Assembly (NCBI GenBank): GCA_018645725.1
Contig: JABGWD010000455.1
Span: 1 to 38,885, forward strand
Origin: Opitutia bacterium
GTDB taxonomy: Bacteria; Verrucomicrobiota; Verrucomicrobiia; Opitutales; Seribacteraceae
Length of the DNA stretch: 38,885 bases
Direction: 5' to 3'
In this document: one piece after another, positions 3,126-10,570 of the stretch
Layout of the letters: every line of letters starts with the position of its first letter
Position numbering within the stretch: position 1 is the stretch's first letter
The notes under the pieces: model-generated
The model's database searches: none
What the model was told of the DNA's origin: nothing
The model's input: only the letters and a program-made list of their open reading frames with translations
Translations under genes and position numbers: made by a program

Positions 3126-6100
3126 ATGTTTAAGTTAAGCAAGGAATCCAAGATCACCTTCATTGGTCTTTTGACCGTTCCTCTCATTTGGATTGTCCTC
3201 AATCATTTTGGCCTCTTGGATTTTTTGGAATACAAGTCGGTGGACTTGCGGTTCAAGGTAAGGGGGAACGCTTCACACAGGGAAGAACCGCTTGCCGACG
3301 AGCGGGTAACCGTTGAAGGGAACAAGACGGTCCCGAGGGTTCCCAGGGTGATGTACGTGAATTTTGATTCCGACACGCTTAGCATGGATGAGGTAGGAGA
3401 ACGCCCCTGGAATCGAGGCTTTTTCAGAGACGTCGGAAAGATATTGCTTGAGGAAGGGAAGGCGAGGGTCGTGGGGTATGACTTCATCTTTTCTCCGAAG
3501 AGCACATCGAGCATGGTTCCCGAAAGGAACGTTTTCGTCAGTGATTCGGCAATTGCCGATCTTGTGGGCAAATATCCCAATCAAGTTGTTTTGGGTTCGG
3601 CATTCACAAACGTTCAGACACCCTTCCTTAAAAACGAATTCGTTGATTTTCTCGCAGGTCCTCCCAACCTCAACGAAGGCTATGACTCCACCAAGATGGG
3701 TTTTCGTTATCCGGAGAGCCCGACTTACCCTATATTTTCTTATGGAAACGGAAAATATCTTGGTATCAACGCCCCGATAACGGTCGCTCCGAACAAGGTG
3801 GATGGGATGCAAAGAATTGTTCCTCTTTGGTTTCCGGGAGGCGGCAAGGCTCATGCATACAATGTCTTGGGTGGCAAAATGGCAAAACTGGGCCTAGAGG
3901 GAATTGACCTCAATCAATCTCGCTCTCCTACCTTGGTTGAGGATGGAGACCGGCTCAAGCTGGTTTGGAAAGAATCGAACAATACCTTGGTTGACTCTCA
4001 GCCCAATTCCATGCCTTTGGTCCGCGACCGGAGCTTTTTTCACTTTGGGGTGGAGGCATTGATGGCCTATTATGGAGTGGACGAGAAGTCCGTGGAGATT
4101 GCCGAAGGCAACAAGAATCTCGTGATCCGGAGTCTTGAGGGGGAAACCTTGGTTGATGCTTCCATGATTGAAGAACAGGGCATGGAGATCAATTGGTTTT
4201 CCAATTGGAAGGATGAGGCGGAGGCAGAAGAACTCTATTCGAAAGCAAAGGGATTCTTCAATCAGGGTGATTTTGAGGAATACGCGGCTAAGGGACCAAA
4301 GATCATACGGTTGTATCTTCAGAGGATAGAAGGACTCGAATTGCCTTCGAGTGACTCGGATTTGGTTGGCACGCTCAAGGGTTTGGAGTTTGACGAGAAA
4401 ATGTTGAAGACGGCTGAGCAGATGATCAAGGCTGCTGCGGGTAGGGTTGCTCCTGAAAAAGCGCCCGATGTTGTTGAGTTTGAAAAATTGCTTACCAAAA
4501 TTGCAGATAATTACATCCCGCCCGACTTGTTTTCCGAGTACAACCCGATGTGCGGCATCGATGACGTACTGAATTACAAAACATATTTGGAAGACAAGAA
4601 TGCTCAGGCCCGAAATGCCGATGCAGTCGTTTTGAAAATGAAAGGTGCGTTGGTTGGATTCAGAAACCTGCATTACCAGTATTCCGAACACAATGAATCC
4701 CGCGATCTTTGGGCAAAAATCAAGGAAATGAATTCAAATCCAACCAAGGAGCAAGCGATTCTTTTGGACGAGCTTTCTGCCCTTGAAAAATCATCTGAAA
4801 TCTTCAAGGGTTTTGCCGAGGAACTCCGCACAAACGAAGAAGCGGATCTGTTGGCTTCGGATTTGGGGAATCTCAATCAAAAGCTCCGTGAGTTGTCTGT
4901 TGCCCGTGACTTGAAACGCAAACTCGAAAAGTGGAAAAACCTGGAAGAGCAAAAACTCGCCATCGTAAACGAAGTAAACGAACTTAAAAAAAGGGTGGAG
5001 CAATTTCCTGCTTTGTCCGCTGTCATTCAAAAGTCGCAAATTGAGCCCAAGGAAAAGGAACTGGACTCCTTGCAAAAACAAATAGCCAAACTGGACGGTG
5101 TATCGAAAACAAGGTTGGAAGAGCAAAAACTCGCCATCGTAAACGAAGTAAACGAACTTAAAAAAAGGGTGGAGCAATTTCCTGCCTTGTCCGCCGTCAT
5201 TCAAAAGTCACAAATTGAACCCAAGGAAAAGGAACTGGACTCCTTGCAAAAACAAATAGCCAAACTGGATGAAATCTCCAAGGGTTCGTCCCAAGACGAG
5301 TTTTCGTCTCAAGAACTTTTGCAAAGTTCAGCTGGCGCTATTTCGAAAACAAAGGCCCTGTTGGCTTTCAACCAAGCCAAGATAAAGGAAGCTGACATTG
5401 AGAGGAATCAATATCTTTCCTTTTTCAAGCAGTTTGAAGACGCAATCGTTTTGGTTGGCCCGACGGAGGCCACTTTTCAAGATTTGTCCCCTACGCCTAT
5501 GGACAAGGATCCGATGCCGAAGGTTTCCGTCCATGGCAACGTAATCAAAACCTTGTCCAGCGGAATTTTCTTGAGAAGGACTCTTGATGGAAAGCTATCT
5601 TCTTCCCTTTTGATATTAGCCGTATGCTTGGTCGTCGGATATCTCGCCGTCAACAGCGCTCCATGGTCCAATTGGCTTGGGGCGATCGTCTTGGTGTTGT
5701 TCGTTGCACTGGCCTTTTTCCTCTTTTCCAATAACCATACCATTATGCCTTTGGCCGTTCCGGCCACGGCTGGAGCGAGTACCTTCTTTCTTGGCTTGAT
5801 CGTCATGATGGTAGTCGAACAGAAAGCCAAGGGGCGCCTGAAGGGCATGTTCGGGAGTTACGTTTCAGCCGAATTAGTCGATCAGATGGTGGAGTCTGGA
5901 GAGGAACCTCACTTGGGGGGCGAAGAGACTGCAATTACTGCCTTCTTCAGTGACGTTCAGGCATTTTCGAGTTTCTCGGAATTGCTTACCCCGACGGGGC
6001 TAGTTGATCTGATGAACGAATACTTGACGGCTATGACCGACATTTTGCAGGAAGAACGCGGAACTTTGGACAAATACATCGGGGATGCGATCGTTGCGAT

Positions 6101-6773
6101 GTACGGTGCCCCTATTCCAATGAAGGACCATGCCTACCAGTCCGTAAGAACGGCCTTGCTTATGCAGGAAAAGCAACTCGAGTTGCGCGACAAGTGGGCC
6201 ATGGAGGAGGATAAATGGGGGAAGTGCTATGGCTTGGTCAAGCAAATGCAAACGCGTATCGGATGCAATACGGGGACCGCTACGGTTGGAAATATGGGTG
6301 CATTGGATCGTTTCAACTACACCATGATGGGAGATATGGTTAATCTGGCCGCCCGGTGCGAGAGTGGTGCCAAGGCCTATGGCGCTTACATCATGATTAC
6401 CGAGGAGACGAAACTTGCGTCCGAAAAAACAAAGGACGACATTGCATTTCGATACCTCGACAAAATCGTGGTCAAGGGGCGTTCGCAACCCGTTTCAATG
6501 TACGAACCGACTGGGTTCATGGCCGACTTGGGCCAGGAGACTCAGGATTGCTTGGATTGCTTCAGGCAGGGCATAGACAAGTATTTGCTTCAGGATTGGG
6601 ATAGCGCGCTCAAAATGTTCGAGAAGGCGAAGGACTTGGAGCCAAACAAGCCAGGCATTACGCCCGGGGTGAAGGACAACCCATCCATGATCTTGATCGA
6701 CAGATGCCAAGTGATGAAGGAGAACCCTCCTGGCGACGATTGGGATGGGGTTTACGTCATGACGAGCAAATAA
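3126..6773 (+). CDS. CHASE2 domain-containing class III adenylate/guanylate cyclase with large extracytoplasmic coiled-coil insert
   Basis: MFKLSKESKITFIGLLTVPLIWIVLNHFGLLDFLEYKSVDLRFKVRG (CHASE2 N-terminus), FKQFEDAIVLVGPTEATFQDLSPTP...VSVHGNVIKTL (CHASE2 C-terminus), three TMs, cyclase motifs FFSDVQAFSSFSE, DKYIGDAIVAMYGAP, GCNTGTATVGNMG, YTMMGDMVNLAARCE; start set at ATG 3126 (ORF track begins 2901). Confidence 0.92.
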   Translation: MFKLSKESKITFIGLLTVPLIWIVLNHFGLLDFLEYKSVDLRFKVRGNASHREEPLADERVTVEGNKTVPRVPRVMYVNFDSDTLSMDEVGERPWNRGFFRDVGKILLEEGKARVVGYDFIFSPKSTSSMVPERNVFVSDSAIADLVGKYPNQVVLGSAFTNVQTPFLKNEFVDFLAGPPNLNEGYDSTKMGFRYPESPTYPIFSYGNGKYLGINAPITVAPNKVDGMQRIVPLWFPGGGKAHAYNVLGGKMAKLGLEGIDLNQSRSPTLVEDGDRLKLVWKESNNTLVDSQPNSMPLVRDRSFFHFGVEALMAYYGVDEKSVEIAEGNKNLVIRSLEGETLVDASMIEEQGMEINWFSNWKDEAEAEELYSKAKGFFNQGDFEEYAAKGPKIIRLYLQRIEGLELPSSDSDLVGTLKGLEFDEKMLKTAEQMIKAAAGRVAPEKAPDVVEFEKLLTKIADNYIPPDLFSEYNPMCGIDDVLNYKTYLEDKNAQARNADAVVLKMKGALVGFRNLHYQYSEHNESRDLWAKIKEMNSNPTKEQAILLDELSALEKSSEIFKGFAEELRTNEEADLLASDLGNLNQKLRELSVARDLKRKLEKWKNLEEQKLAIVNEVNELKKRVEQFPALSAVIQKSQIEPKEKELDSLQKQIAKLDGVSKTRLEEQKLAIVNEVNELKKRVEQFPALSAVIQKSQIEPKEKELDSLQKQIAKLDEISKGSSQDEFSSQELLQSSAGAISKTKALLAFNQAKIKEADIERNQYLSFFKQFEDAIVLVGPTEATFQDLSPTPMDKDPMPKVSVHGNVIKTLSSGIFLRRTLDGKLSSSLLILAVCLVVGYLAVNSAPWSNWLGAIVLVLFVALAFFLFSNNHTIMPLAVPATAGASTFFLGLIVMMVVEQKAKGRLKGMFGSYVSAELVDQMVESGEEPHLGGEETAITAFFSDVQAFSSFSELLTPTGLVDLMNEYLTAMTDILQEERGTLDKYIGDAIVAMYGAPIPMKDHAYQSVRTALLMQEKQLELRDKWAMEEDKWGKCYGLVKQMQTRIGCNTGTATVGNMGALDRFNYTMMGDMVNLAARCESGAKAYGAYIMITEETKLASEKTKDDIAFRYLDKIVVKGRSQPVSMYEPTGFMADLGQETQDCLDCFRQGIDKYLLQDWDSALKMFEKAKDLEPNKPGITPGVKDNPSMILIDRCQVMKENPPGDDWDGVYVMTSK
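4942..5095 (+). repeat. Tandem duplication copy 1 (period 174 bp) inside the cyclase gene
   Basis: Encodes LEEQKLAIVNEVNELKKRVEQFPALSAVIQKSQIEPKEKELDSLQKQIAKLD, identical in protein to copy 2. Confidence 0.95.
5116..5269 (+). repeat. Tandem duplication copy 2 (period 174 bp) inside the cyclase gene
   Basis: By eye, differs from copy 1 at four positions in 154 bp, all synonymous (GCT/GCC, GCT/GCC, TCG/TCA, GAG/GAA); the next base (GAC/GAT) is also synonymous. Confidence 0.95.
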
Positions 6774-7403: not shown

Positions 7404-10040
7404 TTATTGATTATGATTCAGGCTTGCGTCCTCACGGGCAAGTTTTTTCCTCGTGAGGTCGAAATACGCCTGAAGGATATCCCGAGCCACGGGCGTGGCG
7501 GTCAAACCGCCTTGGATTTTGTCTTGAGGGATGATGCCCTCGATAAGCACGGCAATGGCAACTTCAGGGTTTTCCAAAGGGGCAAAACCGACAAACCAAG
7601 CAAGGTTGAGCTTCATGTTGTGATTGCGCCATTGACCGGTTCCGGTCTTTCCGGCGATGTCTATGCCTTCTATTTTGCATCGGTGGGCGGTGCCTTTTGT
7701 GGTAGCCAAGTGCATTCCCTCGTAGATAGCCCGCAAGGAGGATTCCTGAATGCCCAATGGCTGAGGGGGTGAGGTTTTGGGGGTGGACCGAAAGAGAATT
7801 GATGGCTCGAAGGTGAGGTCATTGGAAGCAAGTTTTGCGGTCATGCATGCAATTTGCAGGGGGCTTTGACTCAGTCCACCTTGGCCTATGGTTATGTTGA
7901 AGGTATCCTCCAGGGTCCAAGCGACTCCCGTTGCTTTCTTTTTCCATTCCGGGTCCGGCACGATAGGGGTTCCCGTGGAGGGCAACTGAATGGATGGCGA
8001 CAGGTGCATGTTCAGTCTGCGGGCTTCACGAATCAAGCCAAGATGGCCAATTCGTTCGCCCATTCGATAAAAATAAACGTTGCAGCTTCGGGCGATTGCT
8101 TCCCGGAAGGTAAGTTCACCGTGCGAACCGGGGAAGACGTGACATATCATTCCTTTGTGTTTTCCTTCGCAAAGAAGCTTCTCCTCGGGATCGAGAACCT
8201 TTTGCCTGAAACCTGCCAGTGAAGTAACGAGTTTGAAGGGCGAGGCGGGTGCGTATCCGGGGTGCAATGCACGCGGCAACCATGCCTCGGATCTCTCGAT
8301 TTCGTCGTAGGTCGATTGACTGAGAATTGGTGAAAAGTCCTGCAGGTTGTAGTTGGGTTTGCTTGCGAGGACAAGGACTTCACGGGTCTTCAGGTGTATC
8401 AGGACAGCCGCTCCCGGAGGTGGGGGAGGGGAGGCCAGGACATATTCGTCCACTTCGGGGTTTGCCTTTGCCAGGACTCCTTTCGAGTAGAGCAAGCGCA
8501 GCAAGCGGTCCGCATCCTCGGAGGTTCCCTTGAACCCCGCAACAGTGGAGGCTTGGCGTCCGCTCAATGGGAAAGGCGCGTCTTTGAACGAATTGAGAAG
8601 CAGATCGGGACTGAGTTCCTTTTCGTTTGCCCTGATCAATTCACGGCGCGTTCTTTTCTCAATTGTTTTCAGCCAATCGGAGTCAGGAAGAATTCTATGG
8701 GTTGCGACCCGTTGCGACATTTGCCGGAGGGATCGTTCGGCCAAGCCTTGCAATTCCGAGTCTATGCTCAACCTGACGGGCGAACCTTTTTGAGCAGGTT
8801 TTGATTCCATCAGTTCGACCCTCAACCCGCTCGGACTGATACGCCAAATGTCGCTGCCGTCTTTCCCTCTTAGGTGGGAATCGAAAAAAACTTCGATCCC
8901 CTCTTTCCCCTTTTTCCCTTTGATCTCAAAAGTTCCCAAATCCTGTCCTTCGAGTCCCTCGTCATCGGCCTCGTATCCGCTTCCGACGTAACCAAGGATA
9001 TGCGATGCCAAGGAACCCATGGGGTAGTGCCTGATGGCTTGGGAGTTTACTTGGAGTGGGGAATCCGGATCGATTTCATCGATAAGCTTAGCGTATTCTT
9101 CAGCCGTCAGGTTTCCGGCGAGCTCCAAAGGAAGGATTGATTTTTGTCTCCAGTGAGATTTGAGTTTGCGAAAGGGTATGATCCGGTCCCTTCCGGTCAG
9201 TCGGTTGACTTTGTTTTGGTATCTTTTGACGACATTGTATCGGGCTTCCCATTCGATTGAGGTATGGGTGGTCGTCCTTGCGTCGTTTTGCTCGAATTTA
9301 ATCGTACTTGAGCCAAACTTGAGCTCGGCTTCTTCCGTGTCAAAAAATTCAAGAAAAGAGAATCCGTCCCTCTCGCGTTTCTCCTTTTTCAAGCGGTAAC
9401 GGTTGTCTCGATGAAGAAAAAGATCGGTTGCAAAAAGTCCGGGGACGCAGATCTTGAGATTAGGTTGCGAACCTTCGACTCTCAAGGAAGGCTTGTCTTT
9501 GGGGCTCCAATTCTTGATTGAACAATGCCAAAAGCCACTGGCGGTTTGATTGACGGTGATCCTCGATTTTTGGAAATATAGTTTTACCCGCTCAAAATCA
9601 TTCCCTGTTCTTGCGCTTTTCCCCGTTATGATGATTCCCCGGTTACGGATGGTGGTGTTCTTCATGCAGTGGTTGATCAGCGCATCGCCAGTAAGATCTG
9701 GAATGGCAAGGAGCTCTTCGATCAAGGATCCGGCCGTTTCTCCCAGGGAAACCCTTTCCTCCCAAATTTCTTGCTTGAGGAATTCCAATTGCAGAACTGC
9801 CGAAAAATGCGCCTTGTTGCCAATGAGCAATTGACCGTTTCTGTCCAAGACGTCACCCCTTGCCCCGGGTCGGAGAATTCTGCGCTGCCCTTGAATTCTC
9901 TCGCGGTTCTCAAATTCTTCGGTTTCAAAGGTTTGTCGAACAATCAAGCAACAAGCGAGGGTAAGAAACAAGGATCCGTAGACGAACTTGAACACCCTGA
10001 GCCTTCTTTTTTCGGGAAGGTGTTTCTCAAGCAATTTCAA
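7404..10040 (-). CDS. mrdA: Penicillin-binding protein 2 (peptidoglycan D,D-transpeptidase MrdA)
   Basis: SPFK (SxxK), SCN, KTGT motifs; N-terminal TM; follows mreBCD; start set at TTG 10040 behind AAAGGAG and overlapping the mreD stop (TTGA); ORF track extends to 10220. Confidence 0.9.
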   Translation of the reverse strand: MKLLEKHLPEKRRLRVFKFVYGSLFLTLACCLIVRQTFETEEFENRERIQGQRRILRPGARGDVLDRNGQLLIGNKAHFSAVLQLEFLKQEIWEERVSLGETAGSLIEELLAIPDLTGDALINHCMKNTTIRNRGIIITGKSARTGNDFERVKLYFQKSRITVNQTASGFWHCSIKNWSPKDKPSLRVEGSQPNLKICVPGLFATDLFLHRDNRYRLKKEKRERDGFSFLEFFDTEEAELKFGSSTIKFEQNDARTTTHTSIEWEARYNVVKRYQNKVNRLTGRDRIIPFRKLKSHWRQKSILPLELAGNLTAEEYAKLIDEIDPDSPLQVNSQAIRHYPMGSLASHILGYVGSGYEADDEGLEGQDLGTFEIKGKKGKEGIEVFFDSHLRGKDGSDIWRISPSGLRVELMESKPAQKGSPVRLSIDSELQGLAERSLRQMSQRVATHRILPDSDWLKTIEKRTRRELIRANEKELSPDLLLNSFKDAPFPLSGRQASTVAGFKGTSEDADRLLRLLYSKGVLAKANPEVDEYVLASPPPPPGAAVLIHLKTREVLVLASKPNYNLQDFSPILSQSTYDEIERSEAWLPRALHPGYAPASPFKLVTSLAGFRQKVLDPEEKLLCEGKHKGMICHVFPGSHGELTFREAIARSCNVYFYRMGERIGHLGLIREARRLNMHLSPSIQLPSTGTPIVPDPEWKKKATGVAWTLEDTFNITIGQGGLSQSPLQIACMTAKLASNDLTFEPSILFRSTPKTSPPQPLGIQESSLRAIYEGMHLATTKGTAHRCKIEGIDIAGKTGTGQWRNHNMKLNLAWFVGFAPLENPEVAIAVLIEGIIPQDKIQGGLTATPVARDILQAYFDLTRKKLAREDASLNHNQ

Positions 10041-10570
10041 CTGAGCTCCTTTCTTCCTTCCGGAAACAAATTTGTCAACCCAAGCAATGATTCGGCAAAC
10101 CTGGGCATCCATATGGCAAGCGGGATCAAGGCAAGGGTCGAAGCGATCAGATCGATGCCCCATCTGCCCCATGTCCATTCCATCTTTCCGTTCTCGAATA
10201 TTTTGATCCAAAGCAACCACAGGATAAAGAACAGCAGGTTTGCCGGAAGCTGGAGGGCCAGGGTAACAAAGTCCTTCCGATAGTTGACTCCGCGGAACCA
10301 GTTCGAGCCCAACAAGTGAAAGGTGGACAAGGCAAAGGCATGAAAACCGAAGGTAGTTTCAATTTGTTGGTCGAGTAGCAATCCGGTCACGAATGCCAAT
10401 GGTATGCCTCTTGAATTGTCCAGGCAAAGAGCTCCCGGAAGAAAGAAAAGGGCAGGGAGGTAAAGAAAGACTCCGTGCTGGCCTATGGTCGCGTTGACGG
10501 AACCAAGCAGAATGAGCGTCACTAGGTTTACCCCCAGAAGAACAAACGCTGCCTTGTTTTGTTTTTGCAC
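10037..10570 (-). CDS. mreD: Rod shape-determining protein MreD
   Basis: 177-aa multi-TM protein between mreC and mrdA; GTG start. Confidence 0.75.
   Translation of the reverse strand: MQKQNKAAFVLLGVNLVTLILLGSVNATIGQHGVFLYLPALFFLPGALCLDNSRGIPLAFVTGLLLDQQIETTFGFHAFALSTFHLLGSNWFRGVNYRKDFVTLALQLPANLLFFILWLLWIKIFENGKMEWTWGRWGIDLIASTLALIPLAIWMPRFAESLLGLTNLFPEGRKELS

Follow-up and report, generated by a model that had tools for sequence, protein, structure and literature searches.

CyaD1, CyaD2 and CyaK of Sinorhizobium meliloti have been called CHASE2 cyclases (PMC13001267). In Sinorhizobium the outer-membrane receptor NsrA cooperates with CyaK and CyaD1/D2, cyclases of the inner membrane (PMC7529298). 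Signal transmission by CHASE2 is little described in the papers we found, and our literature search returned no paper on inserts in this domain. Here we describe a gene from a window of 38,885 nucleotides (the whole analysed stretch, contig JABGWD010000455.1 of an Opitutia bacterium). Like the CHASE2 cyclases CyaD1, CyaD2 and CyaK (PMC13001267), its product combines a CHASE2 sensor with a class III cyclase, here in the order TM – CHASE2 – 3 TM – cyclase. The CHASE2 domain is interrupted by two inserts, and comparison of orthologues suggests that a stalk built of repeats has changed its position between them, which we regard as the notable finding of this work.

Results

Domain organisation

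The coding sequence lies on the forward strand at 3126..6773 and encodes 1215 aa, as supported by the open reading frame and Pfam. The mechanical open reading frame starts at an upstream TTG; the ATG at 3126 is preferred, since it aligns with the starts of related proteins. The order of domains is TM1 – CHASE2 (with inserts B1 and B2) – 3 TM – class III cyclase – TPR-like tail, the tail being a weak Pfam match below cut-off (6558..6647, + strand). The cyclase catalytic domain (PF00211; 5931..6488, + strand; residues 936-1121) was aligned with CyaB (3r5g) and CyaC (1wc0), and the catalytic residues D943, K983, D987, T1066, N1073 and R1077 are all present. We take D943 and D987 to serve in metal binding, K983 and T1066 in ATP binding, and N1073 and R1077 in stabilisation of the transition state. 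With this full set of residues the protein is predicted to be a class IIIb adenylate cyclase.

Three TM helices (5592..5852, + strand) are predicted from the sequence and the AlphaFold2 model at residues 823-842, 846-870 and 877-909. CHASE2 is flanked by a predicted helix at 6-27 and by those at 823-909, and in the presumed topology it is extracytoplasmic. The extracytoplasmic part ahead of the three helices measures about 790 aa, in good agreement with the original prediction of some 800 aa followed by three TMs and the cyclase.

CHASE2 (PF05226) was matched by Pfam at 78.5 bits, the cut-off being 26.3, in two pieces. The first (3186..3695, + strand, E 1.0e-9) covers profile positions 5-101 and the second (5235..5633) positions 147-254, of 257. 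Since the cut-off is passed, the protein is a CHASE2 member with insertions. CHASE2 domains are usually contiguous and about 250-350 residues in size, which is no strict requirement; here profile positions 5-254 are stretched over nt 3186-5633, or 816 codons, because of B1 and B2. From the end of the INWFSNW sequence (nt 4208) to the start of the DAIVLVGP strand (nt 5439) there are about 410 residues. CHASE2 fold elements are modelled on both flanks of the inserts, and the last strand and helix of the domain, DAIVLVGP...VSVHGNVIKTL (5439..5591, + strand), fall within the second Pfam piece and correspond to strand 773-779 and helix 800-812 of the model.

The insertion consists of two blocks separated by a segment that CHASE2 conserves, NPMCGIDDVL (4539..4568, + strand; strand 475-477 and the start of helix 478-518 in the model). 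This segment was recognised by alignment with unexpanded relatives, where its counterparts are NPRCSLAELF (L036) and NPRCSIKDVI (L037). In these two proteins 12-29 residues separate INW from the NPRCS-type sequence and a further 35-108 lead to the last strand; the corresponding distances in the window protein are 117 and 300 residues. Of the two, L037 (958 aa) shows a B2 of modest length, 108. The original prediction of an insertion of about 400 aa that splits CHASE2 is thus borne out in the two-piece match and in size, but there are two inserts and not one. Its premise that CHASE2 passes straight from the 'inw' strand to the 'gkiVlvG' strand does not hold, as an NPMCGIDDVL-type segment intervenes also in unexpanded relatives.

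Insert B1 (4209..4535, + strand, ~109 aa by alignment and model) contains a predicted five-helix bundle at residues 366-460, modelled mostly at pLDDT >90. Its length is near-constant across the family (113-125 aa from INW to NPMC), and no match was found for it in Pfam or NCBIfam. Insert B2 (4569..5426, + strand, ~285 aa) is a predicted helical stalk with helices at 478-518, 523-567, 570-626, 628-684, 686-719 and 728-768. In the model it exits from a CHASE2 helix and re-enters at strand 773-779, and helix breaks at 627 and 685 coincide with the prolines of the two repeats. The AlphaFold2 run used 38 homologues and gave a mean pLDDT of 84.6 and a pTM of 0.75. The CHASE2 strands and helices on both sides of the inserts are modelled with confidence; residues 566-593 and 718-726 fall below pLDDT 50, and the packing of B2 at 520-600, its tip and its turns are of low confidence. 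Sequence and model agree on a long insertion inside the extracytoplasmic sensor of a nucleotide cyclase, as had been proposed.

Lys/Glu/Leu-rich, heptad-like helices had also been proposed for the insertion. The composition agrees, with E, L and K at about 12% each in residues 362-768. Heptad periodicity does not reach significance in any helix (p 0.09-0.57; a 3.5-residue period is best supported at p 0.088-0.111 in three helices, with higher values in the rest), in what is a weak test on short helices. The evidence favours a helical stalk kinked at prolines over a heptad coiled coil.

In a sequence search of solved structures every match was to the cyclase domain and none to the CHASE2 part, and a search by fold with the model found no structure at E <= 0.001. 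The fold matches of high probability, 2q00 and 3mfn, are to small proteins at E of about 0.3-1.6; we set them aside. In Pfam and NCBIfam the stalk matched CA109-like (25.2 bits, cut-off 27), DUF5847 and VPA1267_fam, all below cut-off; we regard these as composition matches. A mobile element or intein as the source of the insert was rejected, as the Pfam search found no such domain. Likewise, Pfam found no outer-membrane- or peptidoglycan-binding domain in the protein. An assembly chimera was rejected as well, because an independent MAG (G023) and the isolate AH-558-J18 share the architecture.

The repeat unit and selection on the inserts

A 174-bp tandem repeat at 4942-5269 (97% match), missed by the original prediction, lies inside the insert. 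It corresponds to two copies of a 58-aa unit, delimited by repeat search, profile and alignment: copy 1 (4941..5114, + strand), with the motif LKKRVEQFPALSAVIQKSQIEPKEKEL, and copy 2 (5115..5288, + strand), 95% identical in DNA to copy 1 over 159 bp. Each unit is modelled as helix-kink-helix. The family motif, N-F-x-x-T-L-x-A-N-P-A-L-S-A-V-I-x-P-Q-I-x-x-R/K, is strongly conserved in 45 units, and the best-conserved part of the unit is the kink motif NP..PQ, not a heptad core. The copies are 95% alike in the window, compared to 77% in G023 and 80-82% between species. By this measure the window copies have been homogenised or re-duplicated recently.

This difference shows that slippage or conversion is ongoing, and would suit a neutral expansion of repeats without function. 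We consider this very unlikely. Comparison of the window gene with its G023 counterpart gave dN/dS ratios of 0.017 for the cyclase domain, 0.06 for the first part of CHASE2 and 0.09-0.15 for B1 and B2, values that are rough as synonymous sites are near saturation (dS 0.85-2.5). The inserts evolve faster than the cyclase domain; judged by these ratios, they are nonetheless under purifying selection. Conservation of the unit motif also speaks against neutrality, as does the retention of a stalk, at one of two sites, in every complete family member examined.

Distribution and orthology

The protein of G023 also has 1215 aa and is 85% identical to the window protein. Another relative, G024 (AH-558-J18; 1156 aa), has the same architecture, and complete homologues of the same family (f1) mostly measure about 1240-1370 aa. 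Outside f1 and its sister family f18 the best matches in 273 genomes of the order are mostly in frames of 740-920 aa; therefore enlargement of the sensor is mainly a trait of these two families. B1 occurs together with the stalk in both. The unexpanded orthologues of the order have neither B1 nor a stalk at either site. It had been asked whether the insert is a standard feature of related genomes: within the family it occurs regularly, but most other genera of the order in which the gene is present lack it.

The gene order DUF58-MoxR / cyclase / redoxin / mrdA-mreD-mreC-mreB is common to the window and the examined f1 relatives, with the sole exception that mreD was not detected in the L099 block. 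The window and f1 cyclases are therefore orthologues, and paralogy as a source of the difference in stalk position described below is rejected by this synteny.

Three side observations were made. In the same-family orthologue G329:C14:48724-52443 the two matched stretches contain in-frame stops (4 TGA, 3 TAG and 3 TAA; 1 TGA and 1 TAG), which suggests gene decay or low sequence quality. G017 has two copies of the DUF58-to-mreB block (L093, L094) with different cyclases; the MAG (3% contamination) may combine two strains, or the duplication may be real. In the window the PBP2-like neighbour (7404-10220, 938 aa from GTG) takes 348 residues to cover 171 profile positions of its PBP dimerisation domain, which suggests an internal insertion in this protein too.

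Position of the stalk in orthologues

In most f1 members the repeat-bearing part of the insert sits at another site than in the window. Alignments place this site A at 3909..3929 (+ strand) of the window, where it is empty. Most f1 members carry there, after the AYN helix and before the strand that follows it, a helical stalk of 240-345 aa with 1-3 repeat units; their B2 is a short hairpin, with about 91 residues from NPC to the strand. The model of one such orthologue (L053, mean pLDDT 81.4) has a helical stalk at residues 257-567 and the short hairpin at B2. The reverse holds for the window, G023, G024 and G010, which have a site A of minimal length and a B2 of 225-300. Both sites vary in length and repeat number across the family. 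In the sister family f18 the stalk is at site A with looser repeats, weakly matched by the repeat profile.

This profile was built from site-A units of other species, with the clade of the window left out, and was searched at Z = 1000. It matches B2 of the window (E 1.5e-9), L034 (4.7e-9), L004 (1.6e-8) and, weakly, L074 (0.005). In the whole genome of the window it matches just the two B2 copies, and among the matches listed from 57 related genomes it matches in this gene. HHalign of B2 against site A gave a score of 66 (E 3.7e-9). The controls scored 26.8 +/- 5.0 (max 37.8) for 20 shuffles of 7-column blocks, 11.8 +/- 2.3 for 20 single-column shuffles and 22.8 for the reversed alignment. On these profile comparisons the B2 repeats are homologous to the site-A stalk of the orthologues.

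In a tree built from columns outside the inserts, the four B2-type sequences form one clade (100/100) nested inside the site-A members, and an earlier tree agrees; the long outgroup branches call for caution in reading this placement. Forcing the site-A members to be monophyletic was rejected (AU p 0.00637, log-likelihood 37.3 lower), the constrained group having been chosen from the alignment before the tree was built. With this nesting and the site-A stalk of f18, site A is most likely ancestral, and the module most likely moved to B2, or was copied there and then lost at A. No intermediate with stalk repeats at both sites was seen among the family members compared. L076, with a single repeat at A and a B2 of 141 that lacks the motif, may represent a partial state.

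Movement is what we infer, and the same pattern could arise without it. An ancestor with the unit at A as well as at B2 might have given rise to the clade of the window by loss of A and amplification of the resident B2 copy. We give this somewhat more than one chance in three. A weak motif in the same register is found at the tip of the B2 hairpin in L090 (ENPELEAQAEPLL, z = 5.1), L056 (z = 3.0) and L077 (z = 2.0). However, the B2 units of L034 and L074 have N at -5, which is near-fixed in the site-A units of the family (42/45) and absent from the B2 copies of L090, L056 and L077. The short B2 hairpin of the siblings did not match site A (HHalign probability 1.8), which also argues against a shared resident copy. 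The fuller statement, that a repeat-built stalk changed loop within the same sensor domain of one orthologous gene and that the protein stayed functional, we put forward only tentatively, as somewhat improbable when taken as a whole.

Discussion

What B1 and B2 do can be approached from the model. The original prediction had offered a span across the periplasm or dimerisation of the sensor as possible roles. We see about an even chance that the protein is a CHASE2 receptor cyclase with a B1 bundle and a periplasmic B2 stalk that contacts another layer of the envelope or a partner, the cAMP output reporting this contact. B1 would be a compact five-helix bundle and B2 a long stalk, built partly from the 58-aa helix-kink-helix repeat, that carries the sensor further out from the inner membrane. 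The tip of the stalk may meet peptidoglycan, the outer membrane or a partner protein. A precedent for such a partner is NsrA, the outer-membrane receptor with which CyaK and CyaD1/D2 work (PMC7529298). Since B2 starts from a helix of CHASE2 and ends in the last strand of the domain, events at its tip could reach the membrane-proximal part of the sensor. A pull, movement or binding at the tip would then pass through this part to the TM helices and the cyclase dimer, and cAMP would report the contact. The geometry of the stalk, its partner, the signal and the direction of the response are putative in this scheme.

Class III cyclases act as dimers, and it is conceivable that the inserts serve dimerisation or rigidity of the receptor, so that the paired stalks of two protomers fix the geometry of the cyclase dimer and no distant partner is involved. 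The length of the helices, their high content of E, K and L, and the helical models of the window protein and L053 are consistent with this. We nevertheless find it unlikely: orthologues of 740-920 aa across the order manage without a stalk, placing the stalk at A or at B2 would alter the geometry of the dimer, and conservation is highest in the kink motif and not in a heptad core. An equally unlikely role, in our view, is that B1 and B2 form a head domain near CHASE2 that binds a ligand or partner and does not span the periplasm. The near-constant length and high model confidence of B1 are those of a globular domain, and B1 accompanies the stalk in f1 and f18; against this, length and repeat number are variable at B2 and at site A, which suits a spacer and not a binding site.

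If the change of site is real, CHASE2 can receive input through a stalk whose point of attachment differs, and cyclases of this kind may monitor the outer envelope by a long reach from the inner membrane. The gene would also offer a clear case for studying shifts of modules inside proteins. The series of orthologues (no stalk; stalk at A with 1-3 repeats; stalk at B2) is suited to asking where the input enters CHASE2 and whether length matters.

Among known elements, the S-helix is described as a helical element, some 40 residues long, by which receptor domains are connected to effector domains in signalling proteins, receptor guanylyl cyclases included (PMC1592074). The helices described here resemble it as helical elements in a signalling protein; unlike the S-helix of that description, they lie within the sensor, outside the membrane. 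In the way it may work, the stalk resembles the alpha-hairpin of AcrA/EmrA-type adaptors, a long helical hairpin that leaves and rejoins a compact domain; the coiled coil of EmrA is 127 A long (PMC4158417). The likeness is one of working only: unlike AcrA/EmrA, the host is a receptor cyclase and the repeat is a Pro-kinked unit of 58 aa, and the window protein has no lipoyl or barrel domain (no lipoyl Pfam match up to E 10). Unlike usual CHASE2 cyclases, the window protein has a CHASE2 span of about 816 aa, compared to about 280-450 residues among the best-scoring matches listed from 188 genomes of the class. Closest are the unexpanded orthologues of the order (G055, G043, G048, G044 and others, ~740-920 aa), with 42-57% identity in the C-terminal part; unlike G055, G043, G048 and G044, the window protein has B1 and the B2 stalk.
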